Source of the DNA: Pannonibacter phragmitetus DSM 14782
GTDB lineage: Bacteria > Pseudomonadota > Alphaproteobacteria > Rhizobiales > Stappiaceae
DNA: 64,000 nt
Assembly (NCBI RefSeq): GCF_000382365.1
Contig: NZ_KB908228.1
Span: 1 to 64,000 of the forward strand
Reading direction: 5' to 3'
Below are positions 6,007 through 55,497 of this stretch, in pieces. The notes below the pieces were generated by a model that was given only the letters and a program-made list of their open reading frames with translations, was not told where the DNA came from and did not search any database. Both the position numbers and the translations under genes were made by a program. Each line of letters opens with the position of its first letter. Position 1 is the stretch's first letter.

Positions 6007-7041
6007 ATGAGCCTTGCCCCCGCCGTACCTCGCGCCGTGCCGCCACAACCGGCCTCCCACCCGCTGCGCCGCCCGCAGGGCAACGCGCGCCTCTCCGTCG
6101 GTTTCATTCTGGCCCGGCGTTTCACGCTCTGTGCCTTTGCCAACTTCGTCGACGTTCTGCGCCTTGCCGCCGACGAGGGCGACCGCAGCCGGCCGATCCT
6201 GTGCAACTGGACGGTGCTGTCGGACACGATGGAGCCGGTCACCTCGAGCTGCGGAATCAGTGTCCAGCCCAAGGAGCGCCTGGGCGATCCCACCCGCTTC
6301 GATTACATCGTCGTCATTGGCGGCCTGATGGAAGATGAAGCGGTACTGCCGCCGGGCTATCACCGCTTCCTGCACGAGGCCGCGGCAGCGGGCGTGCCGC
6401 TGGCCGGCGTCTGCACCGGGGCCTTCCTTCTGCACCAGGCGGGACTTCTGAATGGCTACCGCTGCTGCGTCAGCTGGTTTCACCATGCCGACTTTCTCGA
6501 GCAGTTCGAAGGGCTTAATCCCGTCACGGACCAGATCTTCGTGGTCGACCGCGACCGGCTGACCTGCTCCGGCGGGGTCAGCTCCGCGCATCTGGCGGCC
6601 TATCTGGTCGACAAGCATGTCGGCAAGGCACAGGCCAGCAAGAGCCTGCACATCATGATCATAGACGAGGCGCTTCAGGCCGACAAGCCGCAGCCCGGGA
6701 TCACGATGGACTTCAAGACCCGCGATCCGATGGTGCTGCGCGCCCTTCTGATGATGCAGCAGAACATAGAGCAGCCCTTCACGGTGGCAGAGATCGCCAG
6801 CCGGATCGGGCACAGCAAGCGGCAGCTTGAACGGCACTTTCAGGCAGCGCTCGGCACGTCGCCCCAGTCAGCCTTTCTGGACATGCGCCTGTCTCTCGCC
6901 CATCACCTGATCGTCACCGGCGACCGGCCCATCTCCCAGGTCGCGCTGGAATGCGGCTTCTGCGACAGTTCGCACCTGAGCCGCATGTTCCGCCGCCGCT
7001 ATGGGCAGACGCCGCAAGGGCTGCGTCAGGCCCGCAGCTGA
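6007..7041 (+). CDS. GlxA-family transcriptional regulator (AraC type with DJ-1/PfpI-like domain)
   Basis: A 344-residue protein with an N-terminal class I glutamine-amidotransferase-like domain (residues about 28-200, GVCTGAFLLHQAGLL) and a C-terminal AraC double helix-turn-helix (QPFTVAEIASRIGHSKRQLERHF and CGFCDSSHLSRMFRRRYG). This is the domain plan of GbdR/CdhR-type activators of betaine and carnitine catabolism. Divergent placement from etfB and close to a BCCT transporter and purU makes it the probable activator of the locus. No strong Shine-Dalgarno sequence is visible before the ATG. The inducer is unknown. Confidence 0.87.
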   Translation: MSLAPAVPRAVPPQPASHPLRRPQGNARLSVGFILARRFTLCAFANFVDVLRLAADEGDRSRPILCNWTVLSDTMEPVTSSCGISVQPKERLGDPTRFDYIVVIGGLMEDEAVLPPGYHRFLHEAAAAGVPLAGVCTGAFLLHQAGLLNGYRCCVSWFHHADFLEQFEGLNPVTDQIFVVDRDRLTCSGGVSSAHLAAYLVDKHVGKAQASKSLHIMIIDEALQADKPQPGITMDFKTRDPMVLRALLMMQQNIEQPFTVAEIASRIGHSKRQLERHFQAALGTSPQSAFLDMRLSLAHHLIVTGDRPISQVALECGFCDSSHLSRMFRRRYGQTPQGLRQARS

Positions 7042-44096: not shown

Positions 44097-44507
44097 ATGG
44101 CCAGTTCCGTGACCCAATTTCCCGCCGCCCCTTCCGCCGAGGCTCTGGCCCATTTCGAGGCGCGGCTTGGCTTTGAGACCGACTGCTGGGACGTGCATCA
44201 CGCCCTTTCCACCGGGCAGCAGGACTTCGTGCTTCTGGATGTGCGCAGCCCAGCGCTTTACGCAAGCGGCCATCTGCCGGGCGCGCTCAACCTGCCCCAT
44301 GGCAAGATGACGGAGCGGCGGATGGCGGAGTTTCCGGAAGGCTCGCTCTTCGTCGTCTATTGCGCCGGACCGCATTGCAACGGCGCCAACAAGGCCGCCA
44401 TCCGCCTCGCCCGGCTCGGCCTGCCGGTGAAGGAACTCATCGGCGGCGTCACCGGCTGGCTGGACGAGGGCTTCACTCTTGCCACGCTCACCCAGCCGGC
44501 AGATTGA
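44097..44507 (+). CDS. Rhodanese-like sulfurtransferase
   Basis: A 136-residue single-domain rhodanese with DVRSPALYASGHLPGALNLPHG and the active-site loop YCAGPHCNGANKAA, where the first Cys (position of CAGPHC) is the persulfide carrier. Such proteins move sulfane sulfur to an acceptor, often in thiosulfate, cyanide or persulfide handling. AAGGA precedes the ATG. The 3' end overlaps the convergent histidine-kinase gene by 20 bases. A link to the nearby thiol-redox and TsdA-like genes is possible but unproven. Confidence 0.86.
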   Translation: MASSVTQFPAAPSAEALAHFEARLGFETDCWDVHHALSTGQQDFVLLDVRSPALYASGHLPGALNLPHGKMTERRMAEFPEGSLFVVYCAGPHCNGANKAAIRLARLGLPVKELIGGVTGWLDEGFTLATLTQPAD

Positions 44508-45849
44508 GTTCGGCACAGAACCCCTCTTCCGTCCGGTGAAAGCGAAGCTCCCCGCCCAGCTTGCTGACAGCCATGCCGACGATGGCAAGACCCAGACCGC
44601 TCCCCTCGCCCGCTGGCGAGGGACCCCGCTGGAAGCGCTCGCGGACCAGTTGATGGTCCTCTTCACGGATACCGGGCCCCTGATCAACCACGGTAAGCCT
44701 GAGGCGGCCCAGTTCCGTCTGTGCCGCAATGGCGATCCGGGAGCCTTCGGGGGCGTATTGCATGGCGTTTTCGATGATGTTGCGCAGGGCAAGACGCAAC
44801 AGGTTTTCGCTGCGCACGCCCGCCAATAGCGTCTCATCCGCATCCGTGACGACCTGCAGCGAGCGGCGGTTCTGCAATCCTTCGAGATCCCCCAGCACGC
44901 CCTGGACAAGGGCCGCGATGGCCAATGTCTGCGGGCGTGGCTCACCCTCGGCGGAATCCACCGCCGCCATGTCGATCAGTTGCCGCACCAGACGGCCGGT
45001 GCGGTCCACGCTTGTCGAAATCTGTGCGAGTGCCCGGGAGCGGACCTGCTCGTCCGTGCTCATCAAGGCCACCTGCGCCTGCGTCTTCAGGCCGGCCAGC
45101 GGCGTCTTCAGCTCATGCGCCGCATAGGCGGTGAAAGTCTTCTCCCGCTCGCGCGCTTCACTGACCCGCTGGAACAGCGAGTTGAGCGAGCGCAGCAGCG
45201 GCCGCACCTCGCCCGGTGCACCAGTTTCGTCCAGAGGATGAAGCTCATCTGCCGAGCGTCCCGCCAGATGCGCCGCGATGCGGTTCAGCGGCGCCAGCCC
45301 CTGCGCCACGCTCAGCCAGATCAGCAGCGCCAGCAGCGGCAGAATGGCAAAGGCCGGCACGAGTTGCCCCTTCACCACATCCGCCACCAGCCTGTCGCGG
45401 ATTTCGAGGCTGTCGCCCACCAGCACCCGCACATTCAGGACCGGATTGACCACGGCATAGACCCGCCATCTGGCGCCATCGACCGTGGTTTCACTGAAGC
45501 CATCGCGATGCTCTGCGAGCGACGCACGCGGCGCACTCTCCGAGCGGCTGACCAGTTGCCCCTCCAGAGACCATATCTGGCAGGAAAGCTGCCGCCGGTA
45601 ATCGCCCTGATCCGCTGAAAACTCTGGCGGAACGCCGCTCGCCGTCTGGCTGTTCACCACGGCAGCCACATCGACGTGGTGATTGTTGATCAGTGAACTG
45701 ACCATGCGGGCCGCTTCCATCAGACGCGCATCCAGTGCCTTTTCGACACGATGCTGAACGCTGACATAGGTCCAGGCGACGCCAAGCAGCCAGACTGCGC
45801 CCGTTGTCGCCAGCAGGATGAAGAAGAGCCGCAGGCGGATGGAGCGCAT
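44488..45849 (-). CDS. Sensor histidine kinase (QseC/TctE-like)
   Basis: A 453-residue kinase with a first membrane segment at about 10-30, a periplasmic sensor region, a second segment at about 163-183, HAMP, the H-box with His245 in AAHELKTPLAGL, and the ATPase domain with NIIENAMQYAPEG, DQGPGI and GSGLGLAIV. Its start overlaps the regulator stop by one base. It should phosphorylate the adjacent OmpR-type regulator in response to an envelope signal, which fits the Dsb/L,D-transpeptidase genes beside it. Confidence 0.91.
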   Translation of the reverse strand: MRSIRLRLFFILLATTGAVWLLGVAWTYVSVQHRVEKALDARLMEAARMVSSLINNHHVDVAAVVNSQTASGVPPEFSADQGDYRRQLSCQIWSLEGQLVSRSESAPRASLAEHRDGFSETTVDGARWRVYAVVNPVLNVRVLVGDSLEIRDRLVADVVKGQLVPAFAILPLLALLIWLSVAQGLAPLNRIAAHLAGRSADELHPLDETGAPGEVRPLLRSLNSLFQRVSEAREREKTFTAYAAHELKTPLAGLKTQAQVALMSTDEQVRSRALAQISTSVDRTGRLVRQLIDMAAVDSAEGEPRPQTLAIAALVQGVLGDLEGLQNRRSLQVVTDADETLLAGVRSENLLRLALRNIIENAMQYAPEGSRIAIAAQTELGRLRLTVVDQGPGIREEDHQLVRERFQRGPSPAGEGSGLGLAIVGMAVSKLGGELRFHRTEEGFCAELNLPAG

Positions 45850-46508
45850 CAGCCAGCCCCCAGCCGGTAGCCGACACCGCGCACCGTCTCGATGGCGCTG
45901 GCGCCGAGCTTTGCCCGCAGCTTGTGAATATGCACTTCGATCGTGTTGCTTTCGACATCCTCCTGCCAGCCGTAAAGCCGCTCTTCGAGGGCGGTTTTCG
46001 AGTGGATGGCATTCGGATTTTCCATCAAGGCATGCAGGATCGAAAACTCCCGCCGGGACAGCGGGATGACCTCGCCCTTGCGCTCCAGAACCATGGAGGC
46101 GGGATCAAGGCTCAGGCCCCGGAGGCTCAGCTTGCCGCTTGCCCGACCTTCGGCACGGCGGGTAATGGCCCGCAGCCGCGCGGCCACCTCGTCCAGATCA
46201 AAAGGCTTGCCGAGATAATCGTCAGCGCCCGCATCCAGCCCGTTGACCCGCTCGCCCACCCCGTCCTTGGCCGTCAGCAGCAGAACCGGCAGACGGTTTC
46301 CGGCCTCACGGATGGACAGCAGGATATCCAGGCCCTGCCCATCCGGCAGCATCCGGTCGAGCACCATCGCATCAAAGCCGCCGGTTGCCAGCGCCTGCCG
46401 GGCATCGGAAACCGTAGAGACCCCGTCAACGGCAAAGCCATAAAGCTTCAGCCCCTCCCGCAGGCCGTCCAGCAGGACGAAATCATCTTCCACCACAAGT
46501 ATCCGCAA
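45849..46508 (-). CDS. OmpR-family response regulator
   Basis: A 219-residue regulator with receiver domain (acidic residues D8/D9 region, phosphoacceptor Asp51 in VLDRMLPDGQG, and Lys in the GKPFDLDE motif) and a winged-helix DNA-binding domain ending in VHIHKLRAKLG and VRGVGYRL. It belongs to the QseB/PmrA branch, whose sites are direct repeats like those found at 46555 and 49800. It is divergent from dsbD, with the first box between them. Confidence 0.92.
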   Translation of the reverse strand: MRILVVEDDFVLLDGLREGLKLYGFAVDGVSTVSDARQALATGGFDAMVLDRMLPDGQGLDILLSIREAGNRLPVLLLTAKDGVGERVNGLDAGADDYLGKPFDLDEVAARLRAITRRAEGRASGKLSLRGLSLDPASMVLERKGEVIPLSRREFSILHALMENPNAIHSKTALEERLYGWQEDVESNTIEVHIHKLRAKLGASAIETVRGVGYRLGAG

Positions 46509-46554: not shown

Positions 46555-46571
46555 CTTAAGCCTGCCTTAAG
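46555..46571. promoter_or_regulatory. PmrA/QseB-type direct-repeat box, dsbD side
   Basis: CTTAAG-CCTGC-CTTAAG is a perfect hexamer direct repeat with 11-base periodicity, about one helical turn, as in boxes bound by OmpR-family PmrA/QseB regulators. It lies between the divergent response-regulator and dsbD starts (50 bases from dsbD), so it can control both. Confidence 0.75.
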
Positions 46572-46620
46572 CTGGGAACGGGATCCCTCCCCAACCGGAC
46601 AGGAAGCAGAAGGATGGTTC

Positions 46621-48438
46621 ATGCGGTCAGGCACCCTTTTCATCGCTTTGGCGGCGATGCTGACGATACAGGCCCCGGCACAGCTGCAGGCGCAGGATGC
46701 CCCCCTGCCCATGGATCAGGCGTTCCGCCTGACGGTTGAACGCAGCGCCGGTGGCGATGCCGTCCTGCACTGGCAGATGGCAGAAGGTTACTATCTTTAC
46801 CGCGAATATCTGGAGGCGAAAAGCCAGGCTGGCGAGGCACTGGAGGTCCGGAGCGGGCCGGGCAAGATCAAGGATGATCCGGGCTTCGGCACCATGGAAG
46901 TCTATTACGGCACTGCCACCGCCTCCATTGCAAGCCCGCCGCAGAAGATCGAAGTGACCTATCAGGGCTGTCAGGATGGCGGGCTCTGCTATCCGCCCAC
47001 GGCCAAGCGCATTGATCTGGCAAGCCTTGCGGTCACGGATGCAGGCAGGCCTGCCTTGCCCGAAGCAGCCGCTTTTGAAGCGGAGGGGGAGCCGGGGTTC
47101 ACACTGTCCGGAGATCACGCGGAGACGGCTGTTGACCGGCTGATGCAGGATGGCGGGCTGGCGCTGCTGCTGGCCGGCTTCCTAGGCTTCGGCCTGCTGC
47201 TCGCCTTCACGCCCTGCGTTTTCCCGATGTACCCGATCGTTGCCGCCATGCTGGCACGGGAGGGCGGGCAACTGACGGCCCGGCGCGGCCTTGTCATGTC
47301 CACGTCCTACGTTTCCGGCCTCGCCTTTGCCTTCGCCCTGCTTGGCGGGCTGGCGGCATGGTTCGGCCAGAATCTCCAGATGGCGCTTCAGTCGGTCTAT
47401 GTCACGGCGGGCATTGCCGCGCTCTTCGTGCTGCTTGCCCTGCCGGGCTTCGGCCTGTTCAGCCTGCAGCTTCCCCAAGGCCTTGTCAGCCGCCTCACGC
47501 CCTCCGGCAAGGCCGGCGGAACAATTGCCGGGGCCGGAGCGCTCGGCTTTTCCTCGGCGCTGTTCATTGGCCCCTGTGTCACCGCGCCTCTGGCTGGCGC
47601 GCTGCTTTACATCGCCAGAACCGGCGATGCGCTGCTCGGCGCCATGGCGCTTTTTGCGCTGGGGCTCGGCAAGGGCATTCCCCTCATCATCATGTCGGCG
47701 GCGGGCGGCCGCATTCTTCCCAAGGCAGGTGCCTGGATGGAAAGCGTGCGGCAGATCTTCGGCTTCCTGTTTCTGGCAACCGCGCTGTGGCTCGTCATGC
47801 CGCTTCTGCCGGATTGGGGCAACCTGCTGGCCTCAGCCGCGCTCGCCCTCACCTTCGGCCTCTTCACGCTGCAGGCGGCAAACGGCTCCAGCCACAACGG
47901 CATGAAGCTGCTGGGCAGAAGCACCGGTCTGGCCTCGCTCTTCTGGGCCGCCCTTCTCTTCACCGGGCTCGGGCTGGGGGCAAGCGATCCGCTGGAACCG
48001 CTGGCGCCGCTCGCCACAAAGACGGCTTCCACCCAGGCTGCGCAGATCAGCAAGTCCAGCTTCACTGCGGTCACCTCGCGGGAAGACCTCACGGCCCGCA
48101 TCGCGGCAGCGGACGGCAGCAGCCCGGCTCTTGTCTATGTGACCGCTGACTGGTGCGTGACCTGCCGCACCATCGAACGCAGCATCCTCAAGGACCCGCA
48201 GGTTGCCAGCGCCTTGACCGGCATAACCCTGACCACGCTCGACGTGACGGCAGCCGATGCCGGCAAACAGGCGCTGATGCAGGAACTGAAGGTCATCGGC
48301 CCTCCCACCCTGATCTTTCTGGACAGAGCAAGGCGGGAGCCGGATGGAACCCGACTGATTGGCAACTTCCCGGCGCAAGATCTGGCCGATGCCGCGATCA
48401 AGGCCAAGCAAGCGTCTCTTTTCAATCTTGCCAAGTGA
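46621..48438 (+). CDS. dsbD: Thiol:disulfide interchange protein DsbD (ScsB/DsbD type)
   Basis: A 605-residue electron conduit that carries reducing power from cytosolic thioredoxin to periplasmic partners. A signal peptide leads to the N-terminal DsbD domain with the redox pair Cys117/Cys123 (GCQDGGLCYPP). About eight membrane segments with FTPCVFPMYP and FIGPCVTAPLAG carry the membrane cysteine pair. A C-terminal thioredoxin domain has DWCVTC. All six catalytic cysteines are present. AAGGA precedes the ATG. It starts an operon with an L,D-transpeptidase and a DsbA-like gene. Confidence 0.93.
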   Translation: MRSGTLFIALAAMLTIQAPAQLQAQDAPLPMDQAFRLTVERSAGGDAVLHWQMAEGYYLYREYLEAKSQAGEALEVRSGPGKIKDDPGFGTMEVYYGTATASIASPPQKIEVTYQGCQDGGLCYPPTAKRIDLASLAVTDAGRPALPEAAAFEAEGEPGFTLSGDHAETAVDRLMQDGGLALLLAGFLGFGLLLAFTPCVFPMYPIVAAMLAREGGQLTARRGLVMSTSYVSGLAFAFALLGGLAAWFGQNLQMALQSVYVTAGIAALFVLLALPGFGLFSLQLPQGLVSRLTPSGKAGGTIAGAGALGFSSALFIGPCVTAPLAGALLYIARTGDALLGAMALFALGLGKGIPLIIMSAAGGRILPKAGAWMESVRQIFGFLFLATALWLVMPLLPDWGNLLASAALALTFGLFTLQAANGSSHNGMKLLGRSTGLASLFWAALLFTGLGLGASDPLEPLAPLATKTASTQAAQISKSSFTAVTSREDLTARIAAADGSSPALVYVTADWCVTCRTIERSILKDPQVASALTGITLTTLDVTAADAGKQALMQELKVIGPPTLIFLDRARREPDGTRLIGNFPAQDLADAAIKAKQASLFNLAK

Positions 48439-48452
48439 TACAGGAATACCGC

Positions 48453-49154
48453 ATGCCCTCAAGCAAACTGCTGGCAACTGTCCTGTCTGCCCGCCAAACC
48501 CTGATCATCATGGCGCTGGCCCTGGGTCTGGGTGCCTGTGTGCAGACCTCACACACGGCGCCGCCGCATCCGGGCGCCGGACCTGCCGTGCAGGCCATGT
48601 ATGGCCCGGTTATGGACGCTGAGGAGATGATCCCGGCCGTGGACGTGTCGAAGATGGACCCGGAAAATATCCGGCAGATCGTCAACTACCGGACACCCTA
48701 TCCGCCGGGCACCATCGTTGTCGATCCGCATGCCCGGTTCCTCTATCTGGTGATGGAGAACAGCAAGGCGATGCGCTACGGCGTGGGCGTTGCCAAGGCA
48801 GGCCTGGAGTTTGAGGGTGAAGCCGATGTTGCCCGCAAGGCCCGCTGGCCGGGCTGGGTGCCGACGCCCGGCATGATCCAGCGGGAGCCGGAGCGCTATG
48901 GCCATCTGGCGCAGGGCATGCCCGGCGGCATCGAAAATCCCCTCGGCGCCCGCGCGCTCTATCTCTACAAGGACGGCAAGGACACGCTCTACCGGATCCA
49001 CGGCACGAACGAGACCTGGTCCATCGGCCAGTCTGTGTCCTCCGGCTGCATACGCCTGCTCAATCAGGACATCATCGATCTTCATTCGCGCGTCCCGAAG
49101 GGATCGCGGGTGGTGGTGCTTGGCCCCGAACACTCTGGAAAAGGAGAATTCTGA
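48453..49154 (+). CDS. L,D-transpeptidase lipoprotein (YkuD domain), first copy
   Basis: A 233-residue lipoprotein (lipobox LGLGAC, Cys29) with a YkuD domain (about 85-225) whose motif HGTN-x(11)-SSGCIRLLN has His183 and the nucleophile Cys199. L,D-transpeptidases make 3-3 peptidoglycan links or attach proteins to the wall. It begins 14 bases after dsbD, and the next gene overlaps its stop. A cysteine enzyme encoded beside DsbD suggests that DsbD keeps it reduced; this is inference. It is a close paralogue of the copy at 49946. Confidence 0.92.
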   Translation: MPSSKLLATVLSARQTLIIMALALGLGACVQTSHTAPPHPGAGPAVQAMYGPVMDAEEMIPAVDVSKMDPENIRQIVNYRTPYPPGTIVVDPHARFLYLVMENSKAMRYGVGVAKAGLEFEGEADVARKARWPGWVPTPGMIQREPERYGHLAQGMPGGIENPLGARALYLYKDGKDTLYRIHGTNETWSIGQSVSSGCIRLLNQDIIDLHSRVPKGSRVVVLGPEHSGKGEF

Positions 49155-49759
49155 TGCTGCAACGGCGCGAGTTTATCACCGCAGGCCTCACCATGATGGG
49201 TGCTGCCCTTCTCTTCCCCGCGCAAAGCCTTGCCCGGATAACACGGGAAGACGTGTTCTACGACAAGGACGCCCCGGTTCTCGGCAACCCGGACGGCAAG
49301 GTCACCGTGGTTGAGTACTTCGACTACCAGTGCCCCTATTGCAAATCCTCCCACCCGGTTCTGAAGAAGGTGGTGGAGGAAGACGGTGATGTGCGGCTGG
49401 TGCTGAAGGACTGGCCCGTCTTCGGCGGCGCGTCGGTCTTTGCCGCACAGGCCGTGCTGGGGGCAGCCCAGATCGGCAAATACGAGACGGCCATGGAAGC
49501 GCTGATGAAAACAAAGGGAAAGCTGACCGAAGACATGGTGGAAGCGGCCCTGACCGGTGCGGGCCTGACCATGGAAGAGCTTGCCGCCGCCGTGAACGGC
49601 AACACTGCCAGGATCTCCGGCCTGCTGGACCGGAACTACGATCAGGCCCTTGCCTTCAATTTTGCAGGCACACCGTCCTTTGTCATCGGCAGTTCGCTTT
49701 ACCCCGGCGTGCTGGACGAACGCGCGCTGAAGGCGGCCATCGCCAGGGCACGGAGTTAA
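49154..49759 (+). CDS. DsbA-family thioredoxin-like protein (ScsC/Com1 type)
   Basis: A 201-residue exported thiol oxidoreductase with the active site Cys60-Pro-Tyr-Cys63 in EYFDYQCPYC and the cis-Pro loop AGTPSFVIG. The N-terminus MLQRREFITAG with a following hydrophobic stretch may be a Tat or a Sec signal. CPYC proteins encoded next to DsbD-like proteins are usually isomerases/reductases kept reduced by them, as in ScsB-ScsC. Its start overlaps the transpeptidase stop by one base. Confidence 0.9.
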   Translation: MLQRREFITAGLTMMGAALLFPAQSLARITREDVFYDKDAPVLGNPDGKVTVVEYFDYQCPYCKSSHPVLKKVVEEDGDVRLVLKDWPVFGGASVFAAQAVLGAAQIGKYETAMEALMKTKGKLTEDMVEAALTGAGLTMEELAAAVNGNTARISGLLDRNYDQALAFNFAGTPSFVIGSSLYPGVLDERALKAAIARARS

Positions 49760-49799
49760 ATCCTGCGGCGACCGTCAGGGCTGCGGGCAGCTTTCGCGC

Positions 49800-49816
49800 C
49801 TTAAGGCTGCCTTAAG
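49800..49816. promoter_or_regulatory. PmrA/QseB-type direct-repeat box, second transpeptidase
   Basis: CTTAAG-GCTGC-CTTAAG repeats the exact hexamers and spacing of the box at 46555-46571. It lies 130 bases upstream of the second L,D-transpeptidase ATG and 41 bases after the DsbA-like stop, pointing to a separate promoter under the same regulator. Confidence 0.72.
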
Positions 49817-49945
49817 GCAGCCTTGCGATCCGCCTCTGCCGGTGGCCGGACAGCCGCAATGCCAGTTGTCCGGCCACCGCAAACGCAGACCGCAGGGCAG
49901 GTTCCGGGCGCAAGTCCGGCTGCCGCATATCAAGGCCCACCTTTG

Positions 49946-50656
49946 ATGACCTCCATGAATACCCCCGTTTCAACGCGCCTGCGCGCGCGGTATTTCGCGC
50001 AGACCGCCCTCATGGGCCTGCTCGGCCTTGCCCTCACAGCCTGCGTCTCCACCAAACAGCCGGGCGAGCCTTCGCAGGCGGAGCAGGCAGCTCTGGCAAC
50101 CGGTGTGGAGCGCTATCAGGCCCGCACCGATGAGCCCTTCCCGGTGGCAGCCGTCGACACGAAGAAGATCGGTGACAAGTACCTGAAGCAGATTGTTGAC
50201 TACAAGACGGACTATCCGGCCGGGACGATTGTCGTCGATCCGGCCAGCCGGTTCCTTTATCTGGTCAAGGATGGCGGCAAGGCCGTGCGTTATGGCGTTG
50301 GCGTGGGCAAGGCCGGGTTCGAGTTCTCAGGCACCGCCCATGTCGGCTTCAAGCGGCAATGGCCGCGCTGGACGCCGACGCCGGACATGCTGGCGCGCGA
50401 TCCCAGACGCTACGGCAAATGGGCAGACGGCATGGAGGGCGGCGACAAGAACCCGCTCGGCGCCCGCGCCATGTATCTGATGAAGGATGGCAAGGACACG
50501 CTCTACCGCATCCATGGCACCAACGAACCCTGGACAGTCGGCACCGCAGCGTCTTCAGGCTGCATCCGGATGCTCAATCAGGATGTGATCGACCTCTACA
50601 ATCAGGTGTCCCCCGGTGCGCAGGTCGTGGTGCTGGGCGCCGACGGAAGCATCTGA
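49946..50656 (+). CDS. L,D-transpeptidase lipoprotein (YkuD domain), second copy
   Basis: A 236-residue lipoprotein (lipobox LALTAC, Cys33) with a YkuD domain and the catalytic HGTN (His190) and SSGCIRMLN (Cys206). It is collinear with the first copy and shares long stretches, such as PAGTIVVDP, RFLYLV, RYGVGV-KAG and DGKDTLYRIHGTNE, so the two arose by duplication. It has its own CTTAAG box. ATG 49955 is an alternative start. Confidence 0.92.
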   Translation: MTSMNTPVSTRLRARYFAQTALMGLLGLALTACVSTKQPGEPSQAEQAALATGVERYQARTDEPFPVAAVDTKKIGDKYLKQIVDYKTDYPAGTIVVDPASRFLYLVKDGGKAVRYGVGVGKAGFEFSGTAHVGFKRQWPRWTPTPDMLARDPRRYGKWADGMEGGDKNPLGARAMYLMKDGKDTLYRIHGTNEPWTVGTAASSGCIRMLNQDVIDLYNQVSPGAQVVVLGADGSI

Positions 50657-50907: not shown

Positions 50908-52986
50908 ATGGAAGAAAGCAAAAACAGGAAACTGAAACGGCTGGGGGCAGCTGCGGCCGCAGCCGCCGTTCTGGCTTCCGGTGTAGCCATCTGGATGGCC
51001 ATTCCCCCGGCCATCACCGCAAGGGAGCCTGACTTCGGCGCCAGCGTTGATCCGGCCCTGATCGAACGGGGTAAGTATATCGCGTATCTTGGCGACTGCG
51101 TTGCCTGCCACACCGAAAAGGGCGGCGCACCCATGGCCGGCGGTCTGGCGCTAGAAACCCCGATGGGCACGATCTGGTCCACCAACATCACGCCCGACCC
51201 GAAAACCGGCATCGGCGGCTGGACCTTCGGCGAATTTGACCGCGCCATGCGCAAGGGCGTGGCGGCAAATGGCCATAACCTTTACCCGGCCATGCCCTAT
51301 CCCTCCTATGCCAAGATCACCGAAGAGGACATGACGGCGCTGTGGGCCTATCTCATCAAGGGGCTGGAGCCCGTGGAGAAGCCAAACCAGCCGGCGCAGA
51401 TGAACTTCCCCTTCAACCTGCGCTTCGGCCTTGCCTACTGGAACGCCGTCTTTGCCGATGACACACCCTTCGTGCCGGACCCGGCCCAGGATGAGGAGTG
51501 GAACCGCGGCGCCTATCTGGTGCAAGGTCTTGGCCATTGCGGAGCCTGCCATACCCCGCGCGGCATCGGCTTCAACGAACTCGCCATGACGGAAAAGGGC
51601 CGCAATGGCGATCAGTTCCTTGCCGGGGCACAGGTGGAAAACTGGCACGCCATCGAACTGCGCGACCTGTGGACCGTGGAAGACACCGTCGAGCTTCTGA
51701 AGACCGGCCAGAACCGCTTTGCAACCGTCTCCGGTTCGATGACCGATGTCATCCTGCATTCGACGCAACATTTCACCGATGAAGACCTGACCGCCATCGC
51801 GGTCTATCTGAAGTCGCTGCCCTCAAAGCACCCCCGGCCGCTGCCGCCGGAACCGGTCTACACGGGCGCACCGGACGCGGCCTTCAACACCGCTGGCGGT
51901 CTGGGCTACATGCAGTTCTGCAACGATTGCCACCGGCCGGACGGAACGGGCGTGAGGGGCATTTTCCCGGCGCTCGCCGGAAACCCCACGATTACAGCGA
52001 AAGACCCCTCAAGCCTCATCCACATTACCCTGACAGGCTGGGAAACGGCGGCGACCAACGCATATCCACGCACCTACACCATGCCTGCATTCGCCCGGCT
52101 GACGGACAAGGAAATTGCAGAGATCCTCAGCTATGTGCGTGAGAACTGGGGCGGCGGTGCCCCTGCTGTCACCGAAGCGCAGGTGGCGAAGGCCCGCAAG
52201 AATATCGATCCGAAGATCGATGCATCCACATTCGTGACGCCGCGCCTCGCCAGCCTGCTTGACGAGCCGGACAAGGACCAGCTGGTTCTGGGCATGCGGC
52301 TCAACTCGGAGACGAACAAGCTGCTGCCGGGCCATGTCGGCAATGATCTCAACTGCACCTCGTGCCACCTGAATGCCGGCACGGTTGCCGATGGTTCGCC
52401 CTATGTCGGCGTCTCGGCCTTCTTCCCCAGTTATGCACCCCGTTCCGGCAGGGAAATCACCATGGCCGACCGCATCAACGGCTGTTTCCGCCGCTCGATG
52501 AACGGCCAGCCGCTGAAGCCGGACTCGGAAGAAATGCTGGCCATGCTTGCCTATTTCGACTGGATGAAAGGCGAAACCCGGCCAGAGGACAAGGTTGAAG
52601 GCCGGGGCATCGGCAAGATTGATCCGTCGCTGACGCCTGATCCGGTGAATGGTGAAAAGATCTATGCCGCCCAGTGCGCCGTCTGCCATGGCGCCAATGG
52701 CGAAGGCCTGAAGGATGGCGCAGGGCGTGTGGTCTATCCCGCGCTCTGGGGTGAGCGCTCGTTCAACATCGGCGCAGGCATGGCCCGCACCTACACGGCC
52801 GCCGCCTTCGTCAAGCGCAACATGCCCATCGGCTTCCACGAGAAGTTCCCGCTCGGACAGGGCGGCCTGTCGGATCAGGAAGCGCTCGATGTCGCCGAAT
52901 TCTTCAGCCACAAGCCCCGGCCAGACTTTCCCGGCAAGGAAAAGGACTGGCCAAACGGAGGAAAACCGAAAGACGCCCGTTACTGA
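50908..52986 (+). CDS. Pentahaem c-type cytochrome: alcohol-dehydrogenase-type triheme module fused to TsdA-like module
   Basis: A 692-residue membrane-anchored periplasmic protein. After an N-terminal anchor (about 10-33), residues 50-410 match the cytochrome subunit of alcohol/gluconate dehydrogenases, with haem motifs CVACH (64), CGACH (211) and CNDCH (338). Residues 455-670 match diheme TsdA thiosulfate dehydrogenase/tetrathionate reductase, with CTSCH (483) and CAVCH (590). Cys526 in RINGCFRRSMNG lies exactly 39 residues after His487, the place of the unusual Cys haem ligand of TsdA; Met639 is a candidate distal ligand of the last haem. The fusion suggests TsdA chemistry wired to a quinol- or dehydrogenase-linked haem chain. 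Direction of reaction unknown. Confidence 0.85.
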   Translation: MEESKNRKLKRLGAAAAAAAVLASGVAIWMAIPPAITAREPDFGASVDPALIERGKYIAYLGDCVACHTEKGGAPMAGGLALETPMGTIWSTNITPDPKTGIGGWTFGEFDRAMRKGVAANGHNLYPAMPYPSYAKITEEDMTALWAYLIKGLEPVEKPNQPAQMNFPFNLRFGLAYWNAVFADDTPFVPDPAQDEEWNRGAYLVQGLGHCGACHTPRGIGFNELAMTEKGRNGDQFLAGAQVENWHAIELRDLWTVEDTVELLKTGQNRFATVSGSMTDVILHSTQHFTDEDLTAIAVYLKSLPSKHPRPLPPEPVYTGAPDAAFNTAGGLGYMQFCNDCHRPDGTGVRGIFPALAGNPTITAKDPSSLIHITLTGWETAATNAYPRTYTMPAFARLTDKEIAEILSYVRENWGGGAPAVTEAQVAKARKNIDPKIDASTFVTPRLASLLDEPDKDQLVLGMRLNSETNKLLPGHVGNDLNCTSCHLNAGTVADGSPYVGVSAFFPSYAPRSGREITMADRINGCFRRSMNGQPLKPDSEEMLAMLAYFDWMKGETRPEDKVEGRGIGKIDPSLTPDPVNGEKIYAAQCAVCHGANGEGLKDGAGRVVYPALWGERSFNIGAGMARTYTAAAFVKRNMPIGFHEKFPLGQGGLSDQEALDVAEFFSHKPRPDFPGKEKDWPNGGKPKDARY

Positions 52987-53012
52987 TGCCTTGCCCAGGC
53001 ATTATCAGGAGG

Positions 53013-53033
53013 ACCGGCCGCATCGCGGCCGGT
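53013..53033 (+). terminator. Terminator after the pentahaem cytochrome gene
   Basis: ACCGGCCGC-atc-GCGGCCGGT is a perfect nine-base stem followed by CTTTC, 26 bases after the stop. It separates the cytochrome gene from the sensor kinase gene, although read-through is possible. Confidence 0.8.
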
Positions 53034-53077
53034 CTTTCACATCGCCTTCTCCTGCTGCCTGTGCCAGTTTCACCGCC

Positions 53078-54844
53078 ATGATCCGCCTGCCGTTCCTGCT
53101 TGCCCTTGCCCTGACCGCCGCGCAGCTGCCCGCGCAGGCGGACAGCATCCGCATTGGCGTACTTGCCTTTCAGGGCTCGGAAAGGGCGGCAAAGGATTTC
53201 GAGCCGACGATTGCCCATCTCGCTCAGAGCCTGCCGGAACACAGCTTCACCCTTGTGCCGCTCGATCTTGCCGGCATGGAAAGGGCAGCAAGAGCCGGGG
53301 GCTTGGGCTTCCTCATCACCAACCCGGGAAACTATATCGAGCTTGAGTCGAGCTTCGGCATTACCCGTCTGGCAACCCTCGAAACCCGGAACCATGCCAT
53401 ACCGACCGATACGGTCGGCTCTACCATCATCGTTGCGAACCGGCCCCGGCACCCGGCACAGCTTTCCGGCCTTGCCGGCGCCCGGCTTGCAGTCGTGGAC
53501 AAGGATGCTTTCGGCGGCTGGCATGTCATCCAGCGGGAAATGGAGGCCCACGGCCTGCCAGCACGCCGCCTCACAACCATTCTGGAAACCGGCTTTCCTA
53601 TGAACAATGTCATCACCGCCCTGCGCAAGGGCCGGGCGGATGCGGGCATCATACGCGCCTGTCTTCTGGAAGAGGAAATTGCTGCCGGGCGGGTGGCGCC
53701 GGATGAATTCGCGGTGGTGGGTGAACGTCCGGAGCCCGGCTTTCCCTGCCGCCTGTCCTCGCGCCTCTATCCGGACTGGCCTTTTGCGCGGCTCGCCGGC
53801 ACGCCGCCGGATCTGGCAAAGGCCGTGACCGCAAGCCTGTTGTCCATGGCCCCGGCAGATGGCCGCGCCTGGACCGCGCCGCAGGATTACACCTCCGTGC
53901 ATGCCCTGTTCCGTCAGCTGAAAATCGGGCCTTACGCCAATCTGGAGCACTCCACCTTCCTCAATTTCCTGCGGGCGCACTGGCAGTGGTTTCTGACCGC
54001 CTGTCTCGGGGTGGTCTGGTGGATCATTCACGTGGCACGCGTGGAAACACTGGTGCGGCGGCGCACGGCAGAACTGACGCGGGAAATTCAGGAGCGCGAA
54101 AAGGCGGAACAGACGGCCCGCACCCACCGGGAAGAGCGTGACCAGTTCTCACGGCTTGGCATTCTGGGCGAGATGGCCTCCAACATCGCTCATGAGATCA
54201 ACCAGCCGCTGGCTGCCATCACCAACTATGCCGAAGGCATGACCCGGCTGATTGATGCCGGGCGCACCGACCCGGCGCTGCTGCGCGACGGGGTGCGCGG
54301 CATCGCCGGGCAGGCAGAACGGGCCGGGCTCATCATCCGCCGCATCCGCTCCTTCGTGCGCCGCCGTGAGTTCAGGCGCGAGAATCTCGATGTGAACGAG
54401 GTGCTGCGCGAGACACTGCCCCTTTTTGAGGGCACGGCGCTGCGTCTTGGGGTGCCGCTGCATGTCCATCCAGGCACGGATCTGCCGCAAGTCTATGCCG
54501 ACCGTATCCAGATCGAGCAGGTGCTGTTCAATCTCCTGCAGAATGCGCTGGATGCGATGACAGAAACCGGAGGCCGGGAGCGCGGCATCAAGGTGACGGC
54601 GCGCCATACCGGTGATGCCGTGGAAATCGCGGTGCGTGACCATGGCACCGGCCTGACGGCAGAGGTAGAGGCGCATCTGTTCGATGCGTTCTTCACCACC
54701 AAGGCGAAGGGGCTGGGGCTTGGACTGTCGATCTGCCGCACCATCGTTGAAAATCACAGCGGGCGGCTCTGGGCCGCGAACGAAGCAGGCGGCGGGCTGA
54801 GCATGCACTTTACCCTGCCCGTTTCCCGGGAGACTGACGAATGA
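53078..54844 (+). CDS. ttrS: TtrS-type sensor histidine kinase with PhnD-like periplasmic domain
   Basis: A 588-residue kinase with the TtrS domain order: signal peptide (1-21), PhnD/TtrS-like binding-protein domain (about 23-290), one membrane segment (about 302-322), a coiled linker, H-box with His372 (NIAHEINQPLAAI), N-box Asn489 (LFNLLQNALDAM), then DHGTG and KGLGLGLSICRTI. In Salmonella, TtrS senses tetrathionate through this domain. The sensor domain has two cysteines (Cys195, Cys224) that could react with a sulfur compound, which is inference. The gene overlaps the regulator gene by four bases. Confidence 0.82.
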   Translation: MIRLPFLLALALTAAQLPAQADSIRIGVLAFQGSERAAKDFEPTIAHLAQSLPEHSFTLVPLDLAGMERAARAGGLGFLITNPGNYIELESSFGITRLATLETRNHAIPTDTVGSTIIVANRPRHPAQLSGLAGARLAVVDKDAFGGWHVIQREMEAHGLPARRLTTILETGFPMNNVITALRKGRADAGIIRACLLEEEIAAGRVAPDEFAVVGERPEPGFPCRLSSRLYPDWPFARLAGTPPDLAKAVTASLLSMAPADGRAWTAPQDYTSVHALFRQLKIGPYANLEHSTFLNFLRAHWQWFLTACLGVVWWIIHVARVETLVRRRTAELTREIQEREKAEQTARTHREERDQFSRLGILGEMASNIAHEINQPLAAITNYAEGMTRLIDAGRTDPALLRDGVRGIAGQAERAGLIIRRIRSFVRRREFRRENLDVNEVLRETLPLFEGTALRLGVPLHVHPGTDLPQVYADRIQIEQVLFNLLQNALDAMTETGGRERGIKVTARHTGDAVEIAVRDHGTGLTAEVEAHLFDAFFTTKAKGLGLGLSICRTIVENHSGRLWAANEAGGGLSMHFTLPVSRETDE

Positions 54845-55497
54845 GCGAAACTGGCCTGCCCCTCGTGCTGATCGTCGATGATGACGAAGCCATGCGCCGG
54901 TCCATGGCGTTCCTGTTCGCCTCCGTCGGGCTTGAAACGCAAAGCTTTGCGTCAGCGGACGAACTTCTCCCGGCCCTCGCCCCGGAGAGCTGCATGCGGC
55001 CCGGAGCTCTGGTGCTTGACGTCAGGATGCCCGGCATGAGCGGACTGGAGCTGCAGCGCCGGCTTGCCAGCCAGAGTTTTCCCCTGCCCATCCTGATCGT
55101 GACGGGCCACGGCGATGTGGCCATGGCAGTCGAGGCGCTGAAGGCCGGGGCTTTCGACTTCATCGAAAAGCCCTTCAAGGAACAGAACCTGCTCGATGTG
55201 GTCACGGCAGCCATCCGCCAGTCGCAGGACAACCTCGCCCGCAACGCCCGCCGCCGCACCATTCAGGAGCGGCTGGCAAGGCTCGGGCGGCGGGAGCGCG
55301 AAGTGCTGGACGGTATTCTCGCCGGCAAGTCGAACAAGATCATCGCCTATGAACTCGACCTGTCGATCAAGACCATCGAGGCCTACCGCGCCTCCGTCAT
55401 GACCAAGATGGAAGCCGCCTCCCTGCCTGAACTCGCCTTGATGGTCGGCTCCGTTGATGGGGGCGGCACAGGCCCCCATCTGGGGCAGACCCAGTAG
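54841..55497 (+). CDS. ttrR: TtrR/FixJ-type response regulator
   Basis: A 218-residue regulator with an N-terminal receiver (Asp60 in LVLDVRMPGMSG, Thr/Lys at IVTGHG and EKPF) and a C-terminal LuxR-type helix-turn-helix (RREREVLDGILAGKSNKIIAYELDLSIKTIEAYRASV region split by the recognition turn). The DVRMPGMSG-EKPF pattern is typical of FixJ/TtrR. Coupled by a four-base overlap to ttrS. The adjacent cytochrome gene is its likely target, since no ttrABC genes are present. Confidence 0.85.
   Translation: MSETGLPLVLIVDDDEAMRRSMAFLFASVGLETQSFASADELLPALAPESCMRPGALVLDVRMPGMSGLELQRRLASQSFPLPILIVTGHGDVAMAVEALKAGAFDFIEKPFKEQNLLDVVTAAIRQSQDNLARNARRRTIQERLARLGRREREVLDGILAGKSNKIIAYELDLSIKTIEAYRASVMTKMEAASLPELALMVGSVDGGGTGPHLGQTQ

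Follow-up and report, generated by a model that had tools for sequence, protein, structure and literature searches.

How bacteria sense the oxidation of periplasmic cysteines is poorly known. In enterobacteria, the targets of the response regulator PmrA (BasR) serve lipid A modification, and HprRS of E. coli is a two-component system that controls methionine-sulfoxide repair. Both HprRS-MsrPQ of E. coli and the Scs (suppressor of copper sensitivity) proteins repair or reduce oxidised periplasmic proteins; we know of no Scs system that includes L,D-transpeptidases. In Pseudomonas aeruginosa, PA2476 to PA2480 comprise dsbG, dsbD2 and a two-component pair. The box recognized by PmrA consists of CTTAAG-type half-sites with a five-base gap, and the candidate residues for base contacts are a His-x-His in the recognition helix (PMC3973317). 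Periplasmic thioredoxins receive their reducing power from DsbD. In E. coli, DsbG is held in its reduced form by DsbD and shields transpeptidases with a single cysteine against sulfenylation, according to a review (PMC3526765) that cites Depuydt et al. (2009). In P. aeruginosa exposed to a silver compound, DsbG and the response regulator PA2479 rise together, by 142-fold and 22.5-fold, respectively (PMC9952281); in another study, the DsbG encoded by PA2476 was down 1.7-fold under copper (PMC6444534), which makes us unsure of copper as a general signal.

The window, i.e. the whole stretch of 64,000 nucleotides of Pannonibacter phragmitetus analysed here, contains two CTTAAG-N5-CTTAAG boxes beside the genes of a two-component system (Table 1). 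As far as sequence comparisons go, our work largely supports the idea that these boxes mark a conserved regulon of this QseB/PmrA-like system that covers periplasmic thiol reduction and single-cysteine transpeptidases. We assign a probability of about 0.85 to the proposed wiring, in which the boxes are the operators of the adjacent regulator and would place the regulator itself, the kinase and the divergent and downstream genes of the module under its control. This assignment is based on the exactness and rarity of the boxes, their conserved position and spacing, their co-occurrence with the regulator, and the gene content. The adjacent regulator very probably acts on the boxes: its dimer would bind the two CTTAAG half-sites, which are one helical turn apart, controlling via box 1 its own gene and that of the kinase as well as the divergent dsbD, ldtA and DsbA/DsbG-like genes, and via box 2 ldtB, presumably by activation rather than repression. 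Searching an open-access library, we found no paper on CTTAAG together with this dsbD/L,D-transpeptidase regulon and none in which an alphaproteobacterial two-component system governs dsbD along with L,D-transpeptidases.

Table 1. Features of the locus, with positions in the window
Feature	Position	Strand	Basis and remarks
Sensor histidine kinase, 2CSK_N periplasmic domain, 453 aa	44488..45849	-	Pfam; NCBIfam QseC best, below cut-off
Codon of kinase Cys90 (RQLSCQIW)	45580..45582	-	alignments of orthologues
OmpR/PhoB-family response regulator, QseB/PmrA-like, 219 aa, TTG start	45849..46508	-	Pfam Response_reg and Trans_reg_C, NCBIfam, PDB BasR, tree
Box 1, CTTAAGCCTGCCTTAAG	46555..46571	.	112-bp divergent regulator/dsbD intergenic region
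DsbD, thiol:disulfide reductase	46621..48438	+	NCBIfam NF001419, 477 bits vs cut-off 330
L,D-transpeptidase A (ldtA, YkuD), putative lipoprotein	48453..49154	+	Pfam PF03734
DsbA/DsbG/ScsC-like periplasmic thioredoxin	49154..49759	+	Pfam PF13462, PF01323; CPYC motif
Box 2, CTTAAGGCTGCCTTAAG	49800..49816	.	precedes the ldtB start codon by about 130 bp
Degenerate third half-site, CTTGCG	49822..49827	.	same 11-bp register as box 2
L,D-transpeptidase B (ldtB, YkuD), putative lipoprotein	49946..50656	+	Pfam PF03734; past box 2

Gene content and probable purpose of the regulon

The kinase and regulator genes run leftwards and have one base in common. In the opposite direction, dsbD, ldtA and the DsbA/DsbG-like gene follow each other with a gap of 14 bp and then an overlap of one base between the ldtA stop and the next start, and they look like one operon. 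The DsbD protein scores above its family cut-off and possesses all six canonical cysteines (Cys 117, 123, 199, 319, 512 and 515), and a thioredoxin-fold domain with the CPYC motif makes the third product of the run a member of the DsbA/DsbG/ScsC-like proteins. Both LdtA and LdtB belong to the YkuD proteins, and the cysteines of each are one in a lipobox and one in a catalytic-type SSGC motif. A gene for a rhodanese-domain protein (window 44097-44507) adjoins the kinase gene; reactive sulfur could belong to the signal. Past ldtB, the window encodes a multi-haem cytochrome c that contains a SoxA/TsdA-type domain (50908-52986) and, at 52715-55497, a kinase whose front part is like a periplasmic binding protein and a LuxR/FixJ-type regulator, a pair that we take to resemble TtrSR. 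This neighbourhood may concern thiosulfate or tetrathionate.

Periplasmic thiol repair is, in our judgement, the probable purpose of the regulon. DsbD would hand electrons to the DsbG-, DsbA- and TlpA-like thioredoxins, and these would in turn keep the single catalytic cysteine of the L,D-transpeptidases encoded in the same regulon reduced. By analogy, the presence of DsbD, DsbG-like proteins and L,D-transpeptidases in one regulon fits the E. coli DsbG pathway. In this presumed role the regulon would resemble HprRS/MsrPQ and Scs, and the cytoplasmic part of the kinase has a fold match to HprS.

It is conceivable, if rather doubtful, that the same wiring serves tolerance of copper, silver or reactive sulfur rather than the repair of oxidative cysteine damage, and that the susceptibility of thiols to these agents explains the presence of the thiol proteins. 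On one plasmid, the system has a multicopper oxidase and a copper ATPase as neighbours, the sulfur genes blh, bigR and YeeE/TauE are found on two plasmids, and silver induces both DsbG and PA2479 in P. aeruginosa (PMC9952281); through this co-induction, PA2476 to PA2480 are a possible counterpart of our locus. However, most of the annotated neighbourhoods that we read show no metal or sulfur genes, and the regulator scores 159 bits with the NCBIfam heavy-metal regulator model TIGR01387 (CztR/SilR/CopR), as compared to a cut-off of 279. For the thiol-repair regulon that we prefer, oxidants, thiol-binding metals and reactive sulfur are the candidate signals.

Sequence, position and rarity of the boxes

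The two boxes differ only in the spacer, which is CCTGC in box 1 and GCTGC in box 2. The initial annotation had described both as exact hexamer repeats with five-base spacing, which is confirmed in the sequence, and had named a genome-wide scan as a possible refutation. The scan did not refute it: throughout the genome (4.78 Mb, 39 contigs), exact CTTAAG-N5-CTTAAG occurs at the two window boxes and nowhere else. From base composition, about 0.066 exact boxes are expected genome-wide, and the probability of two or more is about 0.002, a value that does not take into account their clustering within 3.3 kb next to a single regulator. Five sites with one mismatch are present elsewhere in the genome (L003-L007); upon inspection of their open frames, two lay inside a possible frame and none was identified as belonging to a module gene. 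Within the window, three matches with at most two mismatches compare to 0.37 expected from shuffles, and none of 100 shuffles reached three. The third of these matches (49811-49827, two mismatches) covers the degenerate half-site, and box 2 is part of three 11-bp steps, CTTAAG, CTTAAG and CTTGCG. Since CTTAAG is its own reverse complement, the hexamers alone do not distinguish a direct from an inverted repeat, and flank covariation revealed no difference between the direct-repeat and the dyad signal.

Box 1 is separated by 46 bp from the TTG start of the regulator gene (46508) and by 49 bp from the ATG of dsbD (46621). The 130 bp between box 2 and ldtB exceed the distance of most boxes elsewhere, which is mostly 20-115 bp. 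The region 49700-50000 is devoid of a sigma-70 consensus promoter, a consensus that alphaproteobacterial promoters often fit poorly. Box 2 is also part of AAGGCTGCCTTAAGGCAGCCTT, a perfect 22-bp palindrome that folds as an RNA stem, and it might accordingly be a transcription terminator or another RNA hairpin behind the dsbA-like gene instead of an operator. We consider this improbable and have rejected it for the lack of a T-tract and a weak stem z-score of just -1.5; moreover, there is no terminator-like site in 49700-50000, and the same box is found upstream of the ldtB homologue in three other loci (L076, L077, L209), where it lies behind other preceding genes.

The adjacent regulator and the reach of its proposed regulon

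Several observations support the earlier placement of the regulator in the PmrA/QseB branch. The receiver and winged-helix C-terminal domains of the OmpR/PhoB family (PF00072 and PF00486) are both detected above cut-off, the closest PDB structure is E. coli BasR/PmrA, and QseB and PmrA are the best NCBIfam models, both with scores below their cut-offs (222/345 and 212/330 bits, respectively). All 26 GTDB orthologues contain the recognition helix EVH(I/V)H with the His-x-His of the PmrA type, and the boxes have the layout of PmrA/QseB-type operators, i.e. two CTTAAG/CTTAAT-like hexamers with a five-base gap upstream of target genes. The system thus shares with enterobacterial PmrA/BasR the CTTAAG-type half-site and the five-base gap (PMC3973317), the His-x-His and the domain layout, but the regulator stays under the PmrA cut-off, and the genes that it presumably controls encode thiol reductases and L,D-transpeptidases. 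QseBC of E. coli provides the top NCBIfam model for both the regulator and the kinase, and qseB carries a one-mismatch box, CTTAAC-N5-CTTAAG, in its own promoter region (ygiW-qseB). Yet the pair does not reach the equivalog cut-offs (for the kinase, 258 vs 475 bits with the QseC model and 156 vs 314 bits with the PmrAB kinase equivalog), QseC has a phenylalanine where the kinases of the box systems have Cys90, and dsb or ldt neighbours are lacking. In a maximum-likelihood tree, a branch with 98/98 support separates the box-labelled regulators (a label that denotes at least 55% identity, not the presence of the box itself) from QseB and BasR, and the window protein groups with copies from an Agrobacterium plasmid (78% identical) and from Rhizobium.

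The box accompanies the regulator across the alphaproteobacteria studied. Among 80 regulator relatives from a scan of GTDB contigs, 26 with at least 55% identity were regarded as orthologues, and seven plasmid loci bring the named orthologues to 33. From Rhizobiaceae to Sphingomonadales, the start of every one of these regulators (33/33) is preceded by a box, usually at a distance of 32-57 bp; 30 boxes are exact and three have two mismatches. For the GTDB orthologues, this means 26/26 boxes about 32-54 bp before the start, 23 of them exact, the two-mismatch versions all coming from sphingomonads (L096, L098, L130). The pattern TTAA-N7-TTAA is present within 250 bp upstream of 23/26 orthologues vs 2/54 less similar relatives. 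Similarly, all seven plasmid orthologues (L209-L214, L219) combine an exact box with a kinase that has the cysteine, and none of the four less similar plasmid loci (L215-L218) has an exact box. In two same-family genomes (L017, L018), an exact box is located between dsbD and an ldt gene, and the regulator follows as the next gene along instead of adjoining the box. Box 1 does lie between the regulator and dsbD, as proposed initially, and the autoregulation deduced from this position is strongly suggested by the box that precedes the regulator gene in each of the 33 named orthologues. Three uncultured alphaproteobacteria (L114, L116, L122) have exact boxes (at about 6525-6556) some 450 bp upstream of QseB-like regulators; these regulators form one small clade beside E. 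coli QseB, outside the box clade.

Both spacing and gene content are tightly kept. The orthologous loci (661 kb) contain 61 exact N5 boxes vs two at all other spacings from 0 to 24 together, and the loci around related non-orthologous regulators (683 kb) contain three boxes, all in the three uncultured alphaproteobacteria just mentioned. A module gene, i.e. one for the regulator, DsbD, a DsbA-like, DsbG-like or TlpA-like protein, an L,D-transpeptidase or a COX1 subunit, starts within 350 bp of 65 of the 69 exact boxes in the orthologous and plasmid loci; most of these assignments come from BLAST comparisons with proteins from the window and from a few related loci, and the counts are not independent events because many loci are related by descent. 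The plasmid annotations independently name dsbD, DsbG, DsbA family, TlpA family and L,D-transpeptidase genes behind boxes. By eye, one of the four boxes left over (L086 107 and 10829, L079 11967, L196 12888) may face a DoxX-like protein and another a cytochrome c. In three loci (L084 10470, L193 15997, L195 6196), exact boxes precede an operon for a COX1/FixO-type (cbb3-like) oxidase, and cysteine repair does not account for these genes. The initial annotation had spoken of a small regulon defined by two boxes: the regulon of the adjacent system is supported, but its extent was understated, as the orthologous loci add thioredoxins, DsbG and the cbb3-like oxidase.

Across 397 genomes of the order, the strict box CTTAAGNCWGCCTTAAG is present in 27 and the regulator (E <=1e-66) in 38; every genome with the strict box also encodes the regulator (27/27), and none of the 359 without the regulator has the box (Fisher p = 2.2e-33, related genomes being non-independent events in this count). 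Since the strict pattern was refined on the window and two same-family genomes, closely related lineages do not give independent evidence of its presence, and the zero among the 359 genomes is the stronger half of this evidence. In a further comparison, each of seven scanned genomes that encode the regulator contains one to four exact boxes, and eight close relatives without an orthologue (four of the same genus, four of the same family) have none. The window regulator is 78% identical to the Agrobacterium plasmid copy vs 61-63% to the same-family copies, and no orthologue was found in the four same-genus genomes, which suggests that the regulator was gained horizontally. That the boxes are bound by a different regulator of the genome, with the neighbouring one as a passenger, is very improbable: we infer binding by the neighbour, and two OmpR-family paralogues with 41-42% identity are encoded in the genome, but no strict box occurs without the neighbouring regulator in the set of 397, the eight close relatives that lack it also lack exact boxes, and related non-orthologous regulators have almost no boxes upstream.

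A candidate sensor cysteine and its possible meaning

The kinase that is paired with the box-binding regulator in our proposal has a single periplasmic cysteine, Cys90; the other cysteine of the protein, Cys445, belongs to the C-terminal catalytic part. Position 90 is a cysteine in 41/41 aligned orthologues and a tyrosine in the eight non-orthologous kinases aligned alongside. In pairwise alignments, it is a cysteine in 26/26 orthologues and in 0/23 others, which mostly have phenylalanine, and in the plasmid set all seven box-bearing loci have the cysteine, with phenylalanine in E. coli QseC. An AlphaFold model of the kinase (pTM 0.48, moderate confidence) assigns residue 90 to the first strand in the sensor domain, for which a fold search with the model gave no informative match among the matches listed. 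It is tempting to speculate, and we do so tentatively, that the kinase responds when Cys90 is oxidised or binds a metal, and switches on the thiol-repair proteins via the CTTAAG boxes. Cys90 would then act as a proxy for the single catalytic cysteine of the L,D-transpeptidases, and kinase and regulator would switch on, through the boxes, the proteins that reduce and replace these enzymes. The signal could be thiol stress in the periplasm, caused by oxidants or by metals that bind thiols, for example copper or silver.

With the box as a guide, the regulon can be recognized in the genomes of alphaproteobacteria, and the shared regulation ties L,D-transpeptidases to DsbD/DsbG-type proteins, in agreement with E. 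coli biochemistry. The regulon is small and its genes form a narrow set; together with an operator that is almost free of ambiguity and a conserved cysteine as the candidate sensor, this makes the sensing of periplasmic cysteine oxidation directly testable. If Cys90 is indeed the sensor, the alphaproteobacteria would possess a dedicated circuit for periplasmic cysteine oxidation.
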